Assembly (NCBI GenBank): GCA_027489175.1
Contig: JAIYAE010000014.1
Coordinates: forward strand, 376,491-440,490
DNA from: Rhodobacter sp.
GTDB taxonomy: Bacteria; Pseudomonadota; Alphaproteobacteria; Rhodobacterales; Rhodobacteraceae
Length of the DNA: 64,000 bases
Reading direction: 5' to 3'
Under the pieces are notes generated by a model. That model worked only from the letters and a program-made list of their open reading frames with translations. It was not told the origin of the DNA and made no database searches. Of the stretch, positions 3,940 through 13,192 are shown one piece after another (the first letter of the stretch is position 1; every line of letters starts with the position of its first letter). The translations under genes were made by a program, and so were the position numbers.

Positions 3940-4877
3940 TTCCCGCTTGCACCACCGCCTGAAGACCGCCCGCCGCCAAAGCCGCCACTGCGGGATGACC
4001 CGCCGCCGCTGCTGCCGGTGGTCGAACTCAGCCGCGAGGCACCGAAAGACTGGCTTCGCCCCACGCGGAACTGCTTGCGGTCGACAAAGCCGCAGCTGGT
4101 GCATTTCTGATGCTCGATTCCGGTGCCGCTCGACATCAGCGTCGCAGGCTCGATCACCTCGCGCGTGCGCGAAAGGGTCGCTTCGCCGCAGCGGGGGCAC
4201 AGCTTCCGCGCCCTGGCCGAGCGCCAGAAGAAAAAGATCACCGCCGCCCCGAAGGCCCCGGCCCCGGCCAGCCAGGGTACATTGCTTGGAATCTCTTCGG
4301 CAAAGCCGTCGGTCAGGGTGACGGGGCGGCCTTCGATGAAGGGCGCGATCAGCCTTTCGCGTGAGGAGGCGATGCCCGCCTCGATCCCCTGCGCCATGCG
4401 CCCCTCACGCAACTCGGGCAAGACAGCGGTGGACAGGACCCGCGCTGCGCGCCCGTCATAGACCGCATCATAGCCCGCACCCAGCGCAATGCGCACTTCG
4501 CGCGCGTCGCTGACGACCAGCATCATGATGCCGTCATTGCGCTCGGCGTCGCCCACGCCCCAGGCGTTGAACAGCGCCTTGGCATAGGCATCCAGCCGCT
4601 GGCCCGCACCGCCGTAGTTTTCGATGGAGGGCAGGGTGACCACCACCATCTGCACCCCGGTTTCCGCCCGCACCGCCGCCAAAAGGCCCGCAATCCGGCC
4701 TTCGGCGGCCGGGTCCAGCACATCAGCAAAGTCCGACAGCGTCTCGCTCAGCGGGGCGGGCAGGGCCGGATTGGTCACCGGCTCGGGCGCAGGATCGGCT
4801 GAGGTTTGTGCAAAAGCACCCGGGGAAAATACCCCGAGCGCCAGCGTCACCGCGATGGCAAGGGCCTTGATTGTCAT
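3933..4877 (-). CDS. TPM-domain (YgcG/Psb32-like) protein
   Basis: DFADVLDPAAEGRIAGLLAAVRAETGVQMVVVTLPSIENYG..., TM helix, zinc-ribbon-like CPRCGE...CTSCGF, Gly/Ser-rich tail SGGGSSRSGGFGGGRSSGGGASGKW. Confidence 0.85.
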   Translation of the reverse strand: MTIKALAIAVTLALGVFSPGAFAQTSADPAPEPVTNPALPAPLSETLSDFADVLDPAAEGRIAGLLAAVRAETGVQMVVVTLPSIENYGGAGQRLDAYAKALFNAWGVGDAERNDGIMMLVVSDAREVRIALGAGYDAVYDGRAARVLSTAVLPELREGRMAQGIEAGIASSRERLIAPFIEGRPVTLTDGFAEEIPSNVPWLAGAGAFGAAVIFFFWRSARARKLCPRCGEATLSRTREVIEPATLMSSGTGIEHQKCTSCGFVDRKQFRVGRSQSFGASRLSSTTGSSGGGSSRSGGFGGGRSSGGGASGKW

Positions 4878-6259
4878 GATGCAAGCAATTCTTTGAGTGT
4901 TGTTGCAATCAACATGACATCTTCGCGACAACAGTCAAATGATCCGACCTGCACCCGGATGGCAAACACGCCATCCACCCGTGTCTGGGTCAGGTACAGC
5001 CGGCCATCGTCGTTGATCCGCGCCAAAAGCGCCTCGGTCGCCGCATCTGTTTCCAAAGCGAAACAAAAGAGCGACAGCCGGGGTTCGGTCACGATTCGAA
5101 TTCCCGGCAGAGCGGCGATCTGATCCCGCGCCTCCAGCGCCCAGGCCACGTGGTTGCGGATTCGTTCTCGCAGCCCCGCCAACCCATAGGCGCGCAGCAC
5201 GAACCACAGCTTCAGCGCCCGGAACCGGCGGCCCAGGGGCACGGTCCATTCGTTGAAGTTGACGATCTCCTCACGCCCCGCCGTTTCCAGATAGGTCGGC
5301 CGCAGGCCAAGCGTGCGGACCTGCGCGCCGGGATCGCGTATGAACTGGACGGAACAGTCGAACTGCGCCCCAAGCCACTTGTGCGGGTTCAGAACAACCG
5401 AATCCGCCCCCTCAACGCCCGCCCAGAGCTCGCGGAACTCCGGGCAGATCATCGCCGACCCGGCCCAGGCCGCATCGACATGGACCGGCACGCCCGCCGC
5501 CTGCGCCGCCGCGATGCACTCGCCGATCCGGTCGAAGGCCCCCACGCTGGTGCCCCCGGCGCACAAGATCACGCCCGCAGGCAACATCCCCGCCGCCCGG
5601 TCCGCCTCAATCGCCGCCGCCAGCGCCGCCCCGGTCATCGCCCGGTCCGCGTCCACCGCCACCTTCACCAAGTTGCGCTGCCCAATCCCCGCCACCCGTA
5701 TCGCCTTGTCGACGGATGAATGCGTCTCGGCACTTGCGTAGAACCGCAACACCGGCCCGCCCTGCAGCCCGTCCTCCAGCCCGCGCCAGCCAAGCGCGCG
5801 TTCCCGCATCGTCAACACCGCCGACAGCGTCGCCGTTGTCGCCGTGTCATGGATCGTGCCGACGAACCCCTCCGGCAGCCCCACCGCCTGACGCAGCCAG
5901 TCGACCATCACCTGCTCGATCTCGGTCGCGGCGGGTGAGGTCTGCCAGATCAGCGCATTGCACCCCATCGCATTGACCAGCTGCTCTGCCAGCATCGACG
6001 CCGGGGCGGCGTTGGCCGGGAAATAGGCAAAGAAACGCGGGTGCTGCCAATGCGTCATGCCCCCGGGCACGATCGCTTCAAAATCCGCCCAGATCGCCTC
6101 CATCGGCTCCGCGCCCTCAGGCGGCGCGCCCGGCACCTGGCGCGCCACGGCCCCCGGCACCAGCGGCGCCCGCACCGGCCTGTCGCGCAACCCCGCATGA
6201 TAATCGGCCGCCCAGTCCGCCGCCCGCTTCGACCACAACCTTAGACCTTCATGGTCCAT
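4874..6259 (-). CDS. PLP-dependent group II decarboxylase (aromatic amino acid decarboxylase-like)
   Basis: HVDAAWAGSAMICPEFRELWAGVEGADSVVLNPHKWLG (PLP-Lys motif NPHKW), HWQHPRFFAYFPANAAPASMLAEQL; ATGA overlap with downstream TPM gene. Confidence 0.93.
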   Translation of the reverse strand: MDHEGLRLWSKRAADWAADYHAGLRDRPVRAPLVPGAVARQVPGAPPEGAEPMEAIWADFEAIVPGGMTHWQHPRFFAYFPANAAPASMLAEQLVNAMGCNALIWQTSPAATEIEQVMVDWLRQAVGLPEGFVGTIHDTATTATLSAVLTMRERALGWRGLEDGLQGGPVLRFYASAETHSSVDKAIRVAGIGQRNLVKVAVDADRAMTGAALAAAIEADRAAGMLPAGVILCAGGTSVGAFDRIGECIAAAQAAGVPVHVDAAWAGSAMICPEFRELWAGVEGADSVVLNPHKWLGAQFDCSVQFIRDPGAQVRTLGLRPTYLETAGREEIVNFNEWTVPLGRRFRALKLWFVLRAYGLAGLRERIRNHVAWALEARDQIAALPGIRIVTEPRLSLFCFALETDAATEALLARINDDGRLYLTQTRVDGVFAIRVQVGSFDCCREDVMLIATTLKELLAS

Positions 6260-6431
6260 TCCGTCCTCCCGTTCCGGCCAGCAAAGGGGCAGCAAAGCGG
6301 CGGAACCGCAGGCAAAGACCCACGAGTCGCCATGTCACCACCTTGTTTGGGTCACGGTTCTTGCTTAGGGTTTCCTTCATCAAAACGGAAGATACCGTCC
6401 TCCATCCCTCTTGCTTGCCCATAGGTGACCC

Positions 6432-7049
6432 ATGTCCTTCTCTCGCCGCGCCGTGCTTCTTGGCCTTTCAGTTGCCGCGCTGACCGCCTGCGTTCCCGGA
6501 AACCGGTTTGAGACGGCCTATGACCCTGTCCCTGCCGCGGTCTCGCAAGGCTGGCGCCTGTCGGATGTGCAGGTCGATGTCCCCAAGACCCTCGTCGTCT
6601 CCGAGGCGAAGTCGCTTCTGCCCAACGCCGATATCGTCTGGCGCGAAGACCCGCTGGGCGACCGCTACATTCAGGTCGACAAGATCATGACCGATGCCAT
6701 CCGCGCCGGGGCGCAGGGGCTGCGCGGCTCGCGCCCCGTCATCATTGACGTGACGGTCACCCGCTTCCACGCCCTGACGTTCGAAGCGGAACAGCGCGGG
6801 CAGGATTGGGGCGTGCACAACATCGACTTCATCGCCCGCGTGGTTGATGCAAGCTCGGGTGAGGTTCTGCTGCGCGACACCCTGATCCGCGCCGAACTGC
6901 CCGCCCTTTCCGGCGCCCAGATGGCTGAGGCGCGCAAACAGGGCCAGACCCAGAAGAAGATGATCACCGCCCATGTCGCCCGGACTGTCGCGGGCTGGCT
7001 TGGCATTGGGCCGGACAACCGCGGCGCCTTCACCCGTTCGGGCGACTGA
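6432..7049 (+). CDS. Lipoprotein of the DUF6778 type
   Basis: Lipobox MSFSRRAVLLGLSVAALTAC; conserved-looking WRLSDVQVDVPKTLVVSEAKSLLPNADIVWREDPLGDRYIQV. Family name from memory. Confidence 0.65.
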   Translation: MSFSRRAVLLGLSVAALTACVPGNRFETAYDPVPAAVSQGWRLSDVQVDVPKTLVVSEAKSLLPNADIVWREDPLGDRYIQVDKIMTDAIRAGAQGLRGSRPVIIDVTVTRFHALTFEAEQRGQDWGVHNIDFIARVVDASSGEVLLRDTLIRAELPALSGAQMAEARKQGQTQKKMITAHVARTVAGWLGIGPDNRGAFTRSGD

Positions 7050-7135
7050 TCTGGCATTTGGCGGTCCGTCTTTCCCGCGCGAAGGCGGGCCGCCCCACTT
7101 GCACCGCGCCACCGCGCCATGCTAGGCCGACCCAC

Positions 7136-7180
7136 ATGACGACGTTGCGCAACATCTGCATCTGCTGCATTACCCGCTGA
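7136..7180 (+). CDS. Candidate Cys-rich leader peptide [14 protein letters not shown] upstream of cysS
   Basis: ATG ACG ACG TTG CGC AAC ATC TGC ATC TGC TGC ATT ACC CGC TGA; three Cys codons in a six-residue ICICCI core; lies between a GCTAGG -10-like box and terminator-like hairpins, just before cysS. Confidence 0.65.
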
Positions 7181-7187
7181 CTTCGGT

Positions 7188-7254
7188 CGCGCGGGCGCTT
7201 CGTCATTCCCTCAGGATGAAAAGCCACTCCCGCGCGGGGAAAGCCTGCGTTTTT
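7188..7254 (+). promoter_or_regulatory. Candidate attenuator (competing hairpins plus T-run) in cysS leader
   Basis: CGCGCGGG (7188-7195) pairs with CCCGCGCG (7229-7236); the overlapping arm CGCGGGC (7190-7196) alternatively pairs with GCCTGCG (7243-7249), directly followed by TTTTT (7250-7254). Confidence 0.5.
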
Positions 7255-7266
7255 GGGACGACTGAC

Positions 7267-8733
<1,467 letters not shown>

Positions 8734-8746
8734 CCCCCGCGCGCCA

Positions 8747-8790
8747 CCGGAATTTTCGAAAATTCCGGCCAAAATCCTTCGAAGGATTTT
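8747..8790. repeat. Two adjacent perfect palindromes (tandem hairpins) between cysS and cimA
   Basis: CCGGAATTTTCGAAAATTCCGG (8747-8768) and AAAATCCTTCGAAGGATTTT (8771-8790), both perfectly self-complementary around TCGA; the second ends in a TTTT run. Confidence 0.8.
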
Positions 8791-8835
8791 GTCTCGCCCA
8801 ATGCCAAACCGTTACGAAATCCTTAAACTGCCAAG

Positions 8836-8884
8836 CTAACCCATTGATTTCACGCCTGTCGAAGCATGTCCCTGCCCGGGACAC
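8836..8884 (-). repeat. Dispersed 49-nt intergenic repeat, copy A
   Basis: Reverse complement GTGTCCCGGGCAGGGACATGCTTCGACAGGCGTGAAATCAATGGGTTAG matches 25915-25963 without gaps at about 40/49 positions. Confidence 0.75.
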
Positions 8885-8902
8885 CCATCCCGGACCCACC
8901 CC

Positions 8903-10522
8903 ATGAGCGACCGCCTCTACCTCTTCGACACCACCCTGCGCGATGGCCAGCAGACCCAGGGCGTCCAGTTTTCCACCGCCGAAAAGGTCCAGATCGCCAA
9001 GGCGCTGGATGCCCTTGGGGTCGATCATATCGAAGGCGGCTGGCCCGGTGCCAACCCCACCGACTCTGATTTCTTTTCGGCCCCCCCGGCCACCCGCGCG
9101 ACCCTGACCGCCTTCGGCATGACTCGCCGCGTGGGTCGGTCGGCCGAGAATGACGACACCCTCGCCGCCGTCCTGAATGCGGGCACCCCGGCGGTCTGCC
9201 TTGTCGGCAAGACCCATGACTTTCAGGTCACCACCGCCCTTGGCGTCACGCTGGAGGAAAACCGCGACGCCATCGCCTCCTCCCTCCGCCACCTTGACAC
9301 CAAAGGCCGCGAGGCCCTCTTCGACGCGGAACACTTCTTCGACGGCTACCGCAGCAACCCCGGCTACGCCCTCAGCTGCCTCCACGCCGCCCTCGACGCC
9401 GGCGCCCGCTGGATCGTCCTGTGCGACACCAACGGCGGCACGCTTCCCGCCGAGGTTGGCCGCATCACGGCCGAGGTCATCGCCGCGGGCATCCCCGGCG
9501 ACCGGCTGGGGATCCACTGCCACGACGACACGGGGAACGCCGTTGCCAACTCCCTTGCCGCGGTCGACGCCGGCGCGCGGCAGATCCAGGGCACGCTGAA
9601 CGGGCTGGGCGAGCGCTGCGGCAATGCGAACCTGACAACGCTGATCCCGACGCTTCTGTTGAAAGAGCCCTACGCCAGCCGCTTCCAGACCGGCGTCACG
9701 CCCGGGGCTTTGGCGGGCCTTCTGAAGACCAGCCGCATGCTGGATGACATCCTGAACCGCGTGCCATTGCGGTCATCCCCCTACATCGGCGCCAGCGCTT
9801 TTGCCCACAAAGCAGGCCTTCACGCCAGTGCCATCCTGAAGGACCCGACCACCTACGAACACATCGACCCCGCGCTTGTCGGCAACGAACGCGTCATCCC
9901 GATGAGCAATCAGGCAGGCCAGTCCAACCTGCGCGCTCGGCTGGAAGCGGCGGGCCTCAAGGTCGACTCAAAAGACCCGCGCCTTGGCCGGATCATCGAG
10001 GTCGTGAAGGAGCGTGAGGATCAAGGCTACGCCTATGACGGCGCGCAGGCCAGCTTTGAACTTGTCGCCCGCCGCGAATTGGGCCTGTGCCCCGAGTTCT
10101 TGGAGGTGAAGCGCTACCGCGTCACGGTCGAGCGGCGGAAGAACAAATACGACCGCATGGTCAGCCTGTCCGAGGCCGTGGTGGTGGTCAAGATCGGCGA
10201 CCGCAAGAACATGTCGGTCTCCGACAGCATGGATGAGGCCGGGTCGGACCGCGGCCCGGTCAACGCGCTGGCCAAGGCGCTTGGCAAGGACCTTGGCCCC
10301 TATCAGGCCTGCATCGACGATATGAAACTGGTGGATTTCAAGGTTCGCATCACCAATGGCGGAACCGAAGCGGTCACCCGTGTGATCATCGACAGCGAAG
10401 ACGGGCAAGGGCGGCGCTGGTCGACCGTCGGGGTCAGCGCCAACATCGTCGATGCCAGTTTCGAAGCGCTTCTGGACGCGATCCAGTGGAAACTGATCCG
10501 CGACATCGGCACGCCCCAATGA
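8903..10522 (+). CDS. cimA: (R)-citramalate synthase
   Basis: [70 protein letters not shown]-terminal LeuA dimer-type regulatory domain. Confidence 0.95.
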   Translation: MSDRLYLFDTTLRDGQQTQGVQFSTAEKVQIAKALDALGVDHIEGGWPGANPTDSDFFSAPPATRATLTAFGMTRRVGRSAENDDTLAAVLNAGTPAVCLVGKTHDFQVTTALGVTLEENRDAIASSLRHLDTKGREALFDAEHFFDGYRSNPGYALSCLHAALDAGARWIVLCDTNGGTLPAEVGRITAEVIAAGIPGDRLGIHCHDDTGNAVANSLAAVDAGARQIQGTLNGLGERCGNANLTTLIPTLLLKEPYASRFQTGVTPGALAGLLKTSRMLDDILNRVPLRSSPYIGASAFAHKAGLHASAILKDPTTYEHIDPALVGNERVIPMSNQAGQSNLRARLEAAGLKVDSKDPRLGRIIEVVKEREDQGYAYDGAQASFELVARRELGLCPEFLEVKRYRVTVERRKNKYDRMVSLSEAVVVVKIGDRKNMSVSDSMDEAGSDRGPVNALAKALGKDLGPYQACIDDMKLVDFKVRITNGGTEAVTRVIIDSEDGQGRRWSTVGVSANIVDASFEALLDAIQWKLIRDIGTPQ

Positions 10523-11265
10523 CCCTCGACGCCTGTGCCAACCTTGTTGAGCGTGGCGATCCGGACCGATTCCGGGCAGTGATGGCCGCGCCCCTGCATG
10601 CCCGCGCACAGCTTTTCCCGCTTTACGCCTTCAACCTAGAGGTCGCTCGCGCGCCCTGGGTCACGGAGGAGCCGCTGATTGCCGAGATGCGGCTGCAGTG
10701 GTGGCGCGATGTGGTTGAAAACGCGGCCTCAGGGGCCGCCCGCGCGCACGAGGTCGCAGGGCCGCTGCACGCGTTGATCCAGGATTTCGGCCTGCCGGTC
10801 GACGTGCTGGATCGCCTGATCGCCGCCCGCCGCTGGGACATCCACAAGGAAGCGCATGAGTCCCTCGACACCTACCTGGAAGACACGGGCGCCGGGTTGA
10901 TGTGGCTTGCAGCCCGGGCACTTGGCGCGCCGGACACGGCGGAAACAACGGTGCGGGCCTATGGCTGGGCAACGGCGGCGGCCTTCTATCTGCGCGCGGT
11001 GCCCGAACTTCTGGCGCGGGGCCGCCAGCCTTTGCCAGACGGGGTCAGCGCTGGTGATCTGGCGCGGCAAGGGTTGGACAAACTGGCCATGGCGCGGGCC
11101 GGTCGAAAGCTGGTGCCGAAAGACGTGGCCCCGGCCTTGCTTGCCGGCTGGCAGACCGAAGGTCTTTTGCAGCAGGCGCTTGGGGCGGGGGCCTCAGCCT
11201 TGCAGCTGACCGAATTCCAACGGCGCGGGCGGCTGTTGTGGCAGGCCGTTTCGCGGCGCTGGTAG
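10519..11265 (+). CDS. Squalene/phytoene synthase-family protein (NDUFAF6-like)
   Basis: ATGA overlap with cimA; LYAFNLEVARAPWVTEEPLIAEMRLQWWRDVVE, ARRWDIHKEAHESLDTYLEDTGAGLMWLAARALG. Confidence 0.85.
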   Translation: MTLDACANLVERGDPDRFRAVMAAPLHARAQLFPLYAFNLEVARAPWVTEEPLIAEMRLQWWRDVVENAASGAARAHEVAGPLHALIQDFGLPVDVLDRLIAARRWDIHKEAHESLDTYLEDTGAGLMWLAARALGAPDTAETTVRAYGWATAAAFYLRAVPELLARGRQPLPDGVSAGDLARQGLDKLAMARAGRKLVPKDVAPALLAGWQTEGLLQQALGAGASALQLTEFQRRGRLLWQAVSRRW

Positions 11266-11273
11266 CAGCCCCG

Positions 11274-12479
11274 TCAGGCCCGCATGTCCTGCGGTCGAAG
11301 CCACAGCCAGATCAGCGCCCCTCCGGCCAGCACAAGGAAAGGCAGCATGGCAAGGTTGACCATCTGCCACCCCGCCTGAACCGATCCACCGGCGCAATTC
11401 ATCAACCCGCCCGAGGAAAAGCTGGCCATCGTCACGCCGCCGAACACCACAAGGTCATTCAGACCCTGCAGGCGGCCACGCTCTTCGGGCCGTTGGGCGC
11501 TGGTCAGCATGGTCGTCGCCCCGATGAAGCCGAAATTCCAGCCGATCCCCAGCAGGATGAGGGCTATGAAGAAATTCTCCAGTTCCACCCCCGCCATGGC
11601 GACGGCCCCGGCGGCTGCAAGGATCGTCAGTCCAAGGGCGATGACCCTCTCGGTCCCGTAGCGCGCGATGATATGGCCGGTGAAGAAGCTTGGCGCATAC
11701 ATCGCCAGCACATGGGCGGTGACCACATCCGCCGCATCGCCGGTGTCAAAGCCGCAGCCCACAACCGCCAGCGGCGATGAGGTCATCACCAGGTTCATCA
11801 GGGCATAGGACACGGTGGCACAGATCATCGCGACGGCGATGGTCGGGGTGCGGATCAGCTCGGCCCGGCTGCGCCCGATCATGGCCCCAGGCACCGGGGG
11901 GGTGGGCTTCGGGATCTGCAGACCGGCAAACAGGAACATCCCCGCAAGGTTGAGGGCGATGACCGCCAGATAGCTGCCAAGAAAAGTCACGGCCATCAGG
12001 TCCGAGGTGACCTTGACCAGTTGCGGCCCGACCACCGCCGACAAAAGCCCCCCCGCCATGACCCAGCTGATCGCCTTGGGCCGGAAGGCGTCTGATGCGG
12101 TGTCGGCCGCGGCGAAGCGGTAAAAGCCCTGCGCCGACATGTAGATGCCGGTGAAAAGGGCGCCGATGCAAAAGAGGACAAAGTTGCCCGAGGACAGCCC
12201 ATAGGCGCCGATCGCCGCCCCAAGCGCCCCGCCAAGCGCCCCGACGACAAAGCCCGCGCGGCGGCCGTGGCGCTGCATCAGCGCCGAGATCGGCGTGGCG
12301 GTCAGCATCGACCCGATCACCGTCATCGTGATAGGCAGCGTGGCCCAGCAGGGATTCGGCGCAAGCGAGGATCCGGCGAGGCCCGCGATGGTGAAGATCA
12401 TCGGCATCTGCGCGCCAAGGATCGCCTGGGCTGCGACCAGCACCAGAACGTTGCGTTTTGCGAGGGCGTCACTCTTCAT
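11274..12479 (-). CDS. MFS transporter
   Basis: About 12 hydrophobic segments, MFS-like loops (MQRHGRRAGFVVGALGG); start MKSDALAKRNVLVLVAAQAILG. Confidence 0.88.
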   Translation of the reverse strand: MKSDALAKRNVLVLVAAQAILGAQMPMIFTIAGLAGSSLAPNPCWATLPITMTVIGSMLTATPISALMQRHGRRAGFVVGALGGALGAAIGAYGLSSGNFVLFCIGALFTGIYMSAQGFYRFAAADTASDAFRPKAISWVMAGGLLSAVVGPQLVKVTSDLMAVTFLGSYLAVIALNLAGMFLFAGLQIPKPTPPVPGAMIGRSRAELIRTPTIAVAMICATVSYALMNLVMTSSPLAVVGCGFDTGDAADVVTAHVLAMYAPSFFTGHIIARYGTERVIALGLTILAAAGAVAMAGVELENFFIALILLGIGWNFGFIGATTMLTSAQRPEERGRLQGLNDLVVFGGVTMASFSSGGLMNCAGGSVQAGWQMVNLAMLPFLVLAGGALIWLWLRPQDMRA

Positions 12480-12562
12480 GTGCCATCGGTACGAGGCTGC
12501 AGTCCGCAGGGCAAGATGCAATGAGCGGTTGCCTCTCTGGTGAAGGATTGAGACAAGAGGCC

Positions 12563-13192
12563 ATGGTAGGCCGCATCATCCATTCCCTTGACTGTGTCGC
12601 CGAAGGCGCTGCCTGGCTTGCCGCCCAGGAACCGGCCTTTGCCCGGGCATTGCCCCTGGTTGGCGATCTGCCCTTGCGCCGCGAGGAGGACGGGTTCGCC
12701 GCCCTCTTGCGCGCGATTGTCGGGCAGCAGGTGTCCGTCGCCAGCGCCCGGGCAATCTGGGCGCGGCTTGAGGCGGCAGGGCTGACCGAGGCCGCGGCGA
12801 TGGCCCTCGCCTCGGATGAGGACCTGCGCGCGGTGGGCCTCAGCCGGCAGAAAGCACGCTATGGGCGGGCGCTGGCGGGGGCGGGGATCGACTTTGACGG
12901 TTTGCGCCAGCGCCCCGATGCCGAAGTGGTGGCGACGCTGGTCGCGGTGCCGGGCATCGGCGTCTGGACCGCCGAGATCTACGCGATGTTCGCCCTTGGC
13001 CGGGCCGATGTGTTTGCGCCCGGAGATCTTGCCCTGCAGGAAGCCGCACGGGTGCTTTTCGGGCTAGAGAAACGGCCGACCGAGAAAGGCTTGCGGCTTA
13101 TGGCCGAAGCCTGGTCGCCCTGGCGGTCTGTTGCGGCGCGGCTGCTCTGGGCCTACTACCGGGTGGCAAAGGAACGGGACGGGGTGGCGTAA
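12563..13192 (+). CDS. DNA-3-methyladenine glycosylase (AlkA-like HhH-GPD)
   Basis: FAALLRAIVGQQVSVASARAIWARL, LVAVPGIGVWTAEIYAMFALGRADVFAPGDLALQ (HhH + GPD Asp). Confidence 0.92.
   Translation: MVGRIIHSLDCVAEGAAWLAAQEPAFARALPLVGDLPLRREEDGFAALLRAIVGQQVSVASARAIWARLEAAGLTEAAAMALASDEDLRAVGLSRQKARYGRALAGAGIDFDGLRQRPDAEVVATLVAVPGIGVWTAEIYAMFALGRADVFAPGDLALQEAARVLFGLEKRPTEKGLRLMAEAWSPWRSVAARLLWAYYRVAKERDGVA

Follow-up and report, generated by a model that had tools for sequence, protein, structure and literature searches.

The 14-codon leader ORF upstream of cysS in this Rhodobacter stretch (64,000 nucleotides, here called the window) is, on balance, probably part of a ribosome-mediated attenuator that reads the supply of both Cys-tRNA and Ile-tRNA, and that controls the cysS-cimA operon. 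A broader version, which we judge evenly poised between right and wrong, is that of a leaderless OR gate for two unrelated amino acids, in which too little Cys-tRNA or too little Ile-tRNA stalls the one leader and switches on the operon, which encodes the tRNA synthetase for the first and the committed enzyme for the second, in the Rhodobacterales and in some Rhizobiaceae. The sequences compared support the regulatory codons, three helices together with the mutual exclusion among them, and the order of the genes. The elements of the locus are as follows.

7099-7126, forward strand: putative promoter, with a -35-like TTGCAC (7099-7104) and a -10-like GCTAGG (7121-7126)
7136-7180, forward strand: leader ORF, with ATG at 7136 and 14 codons plus TGA, in frame across relatives
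7136-7142, forward strand: 5′ arm of helix P0 (ATGACGA), the first seven nucleotides of the leader ORF; partner 7200-7206
7173-7181, forward strand: segment 1, the 5′ arm of hairpin 1:2 (CCCGCTGAC), spanning the last codons and the stop; partner 7186-7195
7186-7196, forward strand: segment 2, which has segment 1 or segment 3 as partner
7197-7208, forward strand: stretch behind segment 2, containing the P0 3′ arm TCGTCAT (7200-7206)
7229-7237, forward strand: segment 3, the 3′ arm of the alternative hairpin 2:3 (7187-7195 with 7229-7237, plus an inner stem)
7228-7258, forward strand: hairpin 3:4, immediately 5′ of cysS, with most of the T5 run (7250-7254) in a bulge
7267-8733, forward strand: cysS, cysteine--tRNA ligase (TIGR00435, 433 bits, cut-off 340)
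8903-10522, forward strand: cimA, citramalate synthase of the isoleucine pathway (TIGR00977, 580 bits, cut-off 450)

The window leader has Cys (TGC) at codons 8, 10, and 11, and Ile at codons 7, 9, and 12. An earlier note on this DNA had described the leader ORF with its three TGC codons, and the arms CGCGCGGG (7188-7195), CCCGCGCG (7229-7236), CGCGGGC (7190-7196), and GCCTGCG (7243-7249) with TTTTT (7250-7254), all of them correct in letters and coordinates. Its proposal of a Cys-responsive attenuator at cysS is well supported by conservation, but the anatomy of the switch needs changing. The 2:4 pairing (CGCGGGC with GCCTGCG) and the T-run, proposed as terminator, are neither of them conserved across the family. 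The family-conserved OFF hairpin appears to be 1:2, which forms over the stop codon and is reinforced by P0, and the alternative would be 2:3, which with its inner stem (7186-7240) has a predicted folding energy of about -25 kcal/mol. The note lacked hairpin 1:2, the long-range helix P0, and the promoter at the ATG, and it did not remark on the Ile codons or on the second gene, cimA. A search of window positions 4000-13000 against Rfam 15 matched zero families at E ≤ 1, and searches for ilvA in the window's genome returned matches below cut-off only.

From the 80 nearest cysS loci plus the window, 72 leaders could be extracted. A covariance model built from the leader and hairpin 1:2 matches 320 of 395 Rhodobacteraceae genomes, in 126 of the 140 genera; among second matches within a genome, those inspected are chance ones and none is found 5′ of cysS. 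Outside the Rhodobacteraceae, a class-wide search with the model gives 26 low-scoring matches, of which 25 were examined as loci and one precedes cysS. That one comes from G450, the only representative of its order in the sample, and it is a real case of the leader outside the Rhodobacteraceae. Codons were counted in 132 leaders, or in 91 once near-duplicates were removed. The comparison of upstream regions across the Rhodobacteraceae, which the earlier note had suggested, finds the Cys mini-ORF and hairpin 1:2 conserved but not the T-run: at least four consecutive Ts occur within the last 45 nt before cysS in 6 of 132 loci, and five in the window only.

Some loci have lost the leader, or at least lack it, and retain cysS-cimA (L035, L037, L042, L048, L064, L068, and L077, including Rhodobacter capsulatus and Rhodovulum); these are natural leader-minus strains. 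In three further loci (L040, L053, L071), an additional hairpin of the GGTCGGG..CCCGGCC type separates segment 1 from a GGCGGGAC stretch and apparently alters the topology of 1:2.

RNAalifold did not recover the structure from a broad alignment, probably because P0 and 1:2 shift register between species, and we used instead a swap test, in which the pairing of each sequence with itself is compared with its pairing to partners from other species. With 91 sequences, and relatedness uncorrected, the test gives z values of -6.3 for P0, -10.5 for 1:2, and -3.5 for 2:3, and three control pairings are at or weaker than the null (z of +1.1, +1.5, and -0.1). A first run with 43 sequences agrees for all three helices, and had two unclean controls: leader start with segment 2 (z = -4.3, segments that overlap P0) and segment 1 with segment 3 (z = -1.8). 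Counted by columns, the covariation in 1:2 is modest.

The reading of such leaders as Cys attenuators has already been published as a computational prediction, under the motif name uORFC-8-2 (Brewer et al. 2021, RNA Biol., PMC8632094). As far as the available text of that paper goes, uORFC-8-2 comprises 145 examples, exclusively 5′ of cysS and in Rhodobacterales, with an AUG-started uORF, tandem Cys codons (mainly UGC), stems, and a U-run, and it was proposed to be a ribosome-mediated attenuator. The leader described here shares with it the adjoining cysS, the short AUG-started uORF, and the tandem TGC TGC. In the window this tandem occupies codons 10-11, whereas the published text places it usually at positions 14-15, a difference that may lie in the counting. 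The same text describes two stems as prominent, with the Cys codons lying in the first, and doubts the covariation of a third. Here the Cys codons lie inside P0, with 1:2 after it, and going by the published wording these may be the equivalent stems. The 3′-terminal U-run of uORFC-8-2 may have as its counterpart a U-rich stretch in most loci, weak in the window. A leaderless start, the 2:3 alternative, and occurrence outside the Rhodobacterales are undescribed in the available text, and the words isoleucine, citramalate, and cimA are absent from the main text.

Leaders are 12-15 codons long, mostly 14 (132 leaders), and at least one Cys codon is present in 91 of 91 non-redundant ones. Among leader residues, 29% are Ile and 19% Cys; the CysS proteins encoded at these loci contain 4.0% and 0.9%, respectively. 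The sole invariant residue is an Ile, at position -3 from the stop (91/91; ATT in 90, ATC in 1), and its conservation exceeds that of any leader Cys. Ile or Cys is found at -4 in 88/91 leaders (97%) and at -5 in 79/91 (87%). Of the 455 codons at positions -4 to -8, 356 encode Ile or Cys. The two replace each other in the same alignment columns, and codons intermediate by one step between them are nearly absent (TTC 4/455, AGY 0), which points to selection acting on codon identity. Cys is written TGC 214 times and TGT 9 times across loci. Leaders differ in how many Ile and Cys they have and in how these are arranged, and switches between the two, counted on the CysS tree, are many, a number that codon insertions inflate and that is of qualitative use only.

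The second gene matches the second amino acid. In the first 80 loci, cimA lies 3′ of cysS in 77 of 77 scorable cases (in the other three the contig ends at cysS), and also in 60 of 60 further loci, G450 included. Cys-tRNA sensing, as the earlier note had it, agrees with the conserved Cys codons; it is probably incomplete, given the Ile enrichment, the better conserved Ile at -3, and the presence of cimA in the operon. The leader probably senses Ile shortage besides Cys, a proposal drawn entirely from codon content and operon matching. No Ile/Cys leader was found ahead of a cysS fully unlinked to cimA, and thus the link between Ile and cimA is made by matching.

The main competing explanation, which we regard as possible though rather unlikely, is a Cys-only attenuator as published, in which the Ile codons would provide an unstructured AU-rich stall region or serve other RNA purposes, and cimA would be a passenger. 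It is the published reading of uORFC-8-2 and agrees with cysS as the first gene; moreover, in several other Alphaproteobacteria cysS-cimA is present and the leader is not detected. The near-exclusive ATT at -3 also hints at a constraint on the RNA: the usual Ile codon in cysS is ATC, unlike the one at -3, so that part of the conservation of this Ile may act at the RNA level. Yet Ile is 7-fold enriched, and hydrophobic residues of other kinds (Val, Phe, Met, Leu) seldom occur; the Ile codons at -6 to -8 are both ATT and ATC; Ile and Cys exchange without intermediates; and the leader of Shinella is down to one Cys and keeps three Ile.

A putative promoter is recognizable at an almost fixed distance from the leader. 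In the 91 non-redundant loci, a -35 TTG lies mostly 35-36 nt, and a -10 TA mostly 12-13 nt, 5′ of the leader ATG. From this sigma-70 promoter spacing we infer that transcription starts at, or a few bases from, the A of the ATG. Shine-Dalgarno (SD)-like 4-mers precede the leader in 5/91 loci, or in 11/91 using a wider set of 4-mers, and with that wider set they precede cysS in 86/91. The leader is probably leaderless. The same class of bacteria offers a precedent in the trpL of Sinorhizobium meliloti, a leaderless 14-codon leader whose translation has been captured by Ribo-seq (PMC7298713, PMC10117765), although it senses Trp and belongs to another operon with another sequence.

In relatives outside the window's group (such as L043, L060, L067), a conserved GAAGTTGCTAAGCCCGC that resembles a -10 element is found ~25-50 nt 5′ of cysS. 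The stretch runs just ahead of and into segment 3, and a TA at most 8 nt upstream of segment 3 is present in 61/83 sequences vs. 13% of coding controls. Since the leader-minus L048 and L077 retain a similar stretch, a second, unattenuated cysS promoter is possible.

The mechanism that we propose for the dual attenuator would operate as follows. Transcription would start at or next to the leader AUG, as the promoter spacing suggests, and the first ribosome would load on the 5′ end of the RNA. When Cys-tRNA and Ile-tRNA are ample, the ribosome would finish the leader and leave, the end of the leader and its stop codon would fold into 1:2, and P0 would hold the leader start against the stretch behind 1:2 (OFF). 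When either charged tRNA is short, the ribosome would stall on the Ile/Cys codons; a stall at -3 to -5 would hide segment 1 under the footprint, and segment 2 would be left to pair with segment 3 (ON). What we infer in this scheme is that the ribosome stalls, in which direction control runs, and how the switch is read out.

Hairpins 1:2 and 2:3 are mutually exclusive, segment 2 being common to both, and they lie past the regulatory codons as in a classical transcription attenuator, with which the leader appears to share the regulatory codons themselves and their in-frame conservation. In ribosome-free RNA 1:2 prevails, with at least 4 bp in 77% of sequences. Hiding the leader up to the front edge of a stalled ribosome takes 2:3 (at least 4 bp) from 27% to 92-93% and abolishes 1:2 if P0 is taken to be unable to form around the ribosome; if P0 is allowed to form there, 2:3 rises only from 21% to 44-49%. 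For a footprint of ~11 nt beyond the A-site codon, an A site at -3, -4, or -5 covers segment 1 wholly, mostly, or partly, and these are the most constrained codons. The earlier note's worry that a ribosome at the stop would mask both arms is eased, as a stall at these positions would cover segment 1 and free segment 2. In many sequences 2:3 can also form while a ribosome sits at the stop codon, and the OFF state thus requires prompt release.

In the window, equilibrium folding at full length does not produce a clean OFF/ON switch, and 3:4 persists with the leader hidden; a switch there would therefore depend on the order of co-transcriptional folding. When P0 is allowed to form around the ribosome, it is retained in the window, where 2:3 is then minor. 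In the window's group, TCGTCATTCC (7200-7206) has two possible partners, the leader start (P0) and GGATGA (7214-7219) inside 2:3, and this single stretch may serve both folds.

The readout may be a terminator, Rho, or control of translation; for the family, we favour premature transcription termination. A U-rich stretch (at least 5 T in 8) is found behind 1:2/P0 in 60/91 loci vs. 9% of coding controls, so that the OFF fold of most relatives is followed by what termination would call for. The stretch is present in only 1 of 27 sequences of the window's own group, and the window has 4 T in 8. Compared to a classical Rho-independent terminator, then, the U-rich stretch exists in most relatives and is weak in the window, and T5 is a feature of the window only. 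T-runs directly 5′ of cysS are not enriched, and we rejected 7250-7254 as a conserved terminator, five Ts being confined to the window. The 3:4 hairpin is also present in the window's close relatives, where T5 is absent; together with T5, it may contribute to the window's own readout.

We think it unlikely that the readout is translational, with the folds gating the cysS ribosome binding site such that 3:4 covers the SD and 2:3 frees it. This alternative concerns the readout, and it is compatible with either sensing model. In the window and its close relatives, the outer stem of 3:4 (TCCC with GGGA in the window) pairs segment 3 with the presumed cysS SD, GGGA/GGGAC, and the absence of a conserved T-run before cysS would also fit. 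But in equilibrium folding the SD does not gain accessibility upon stalling, which goes from 0.33 to 0.23 in the window's group and from 0.39 to 0.41 in the others, and SD sequestration as the readout finds no support in such folding.

It is very unlikely that the leader encodes an arrest peptide responding, inside the ribosome tunnel, to free cysteine or some other ligand, or that the peptide or the leader RNA acts in trans, as reported for S. meliloti trpL. The C-terminal peptide is conserved (I-C-C-I-T-R/C/G), and the class has leaderless leaders of 14 aa that function in trans (PMC7298713), but Ile and Cys vary in number and arrangement, whereas an arrest motif would be fixed, and a second target or copy was not seen. 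Finally, GC-rich intergenic DNA often contains short ORFs, but that this is one of them by chance has next to no probability, being refuted by the family-wide in-frame conservation and the swap tests.

Leaders that read several amino acids tied to the products of their operon are well known for ilv operons such as E. coli ilvGMEDA. The amino acids in that case form one pathway group, whereas the dual attenuator proposed here would combine Cys, for a tRNA synthetase, with Ile, for a biosynthetic enzyme, from different pathways. In mycobacteria, polycysteine leaderless sORFs are reported by Canestrari and colleagues in 2020 (a study cited in PMC13236596) to act as attenuators that control downstream genes in response to cysteine. 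By that description they are similarly leaderless, Cys-rich, and short, in a different phylum, and we know of no Ile component in them. What appears to be new in our analysis is, most importantly, the dual Ile/Cys reading; further additions are the copies in rhizobia, the probable leaderless start, and helices P0 and 2:3. The published candidate uORFC-8-2 is thereby revised in range, structure, and signal. If the dual reading is true, one leader of 14 codons ties the charging of cysteine to the synthesis of isoleucine throughout a major lineage of bacteria, and this tie could also explain why cysS and cimA have remained linked in that lineage.

The layout of the leader extends beyond the Rhodobacterales, because copies exist in Sinorhizobium and Shinella. 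A Sinorhizobium meliloti record has the leader MKTVICIICRNIIR* upstream of cysS, with a predicted fold in which P0 has 13 bp and the stop codon lies within 1:2. Shinella has MKTVLCIRRSIIR* upstream of cysS. Both leaders have a promoter-like sequence shortly 5′ of the ATG, and both are predicted to form a long P0 and a 1:2 that contains the stop. In the two genera cimA lies 2.6-2.7 kb downstream of cysS, and in Sinorhizobium all genes between the two are on the same strand. DNA-pattern searches for further rhizobial copies returned chance matches only. The Sinorhizobium copy makes dual sensing testable in a standard laboratory species with a Ribo-seq precedent for leaderless leaders. As a side observation, one 3.72 Mb record that contains cysS (L235, CP090106.1) is labelled plasmid pSymB, and its size suggests that it is a mislabelled chromosome.
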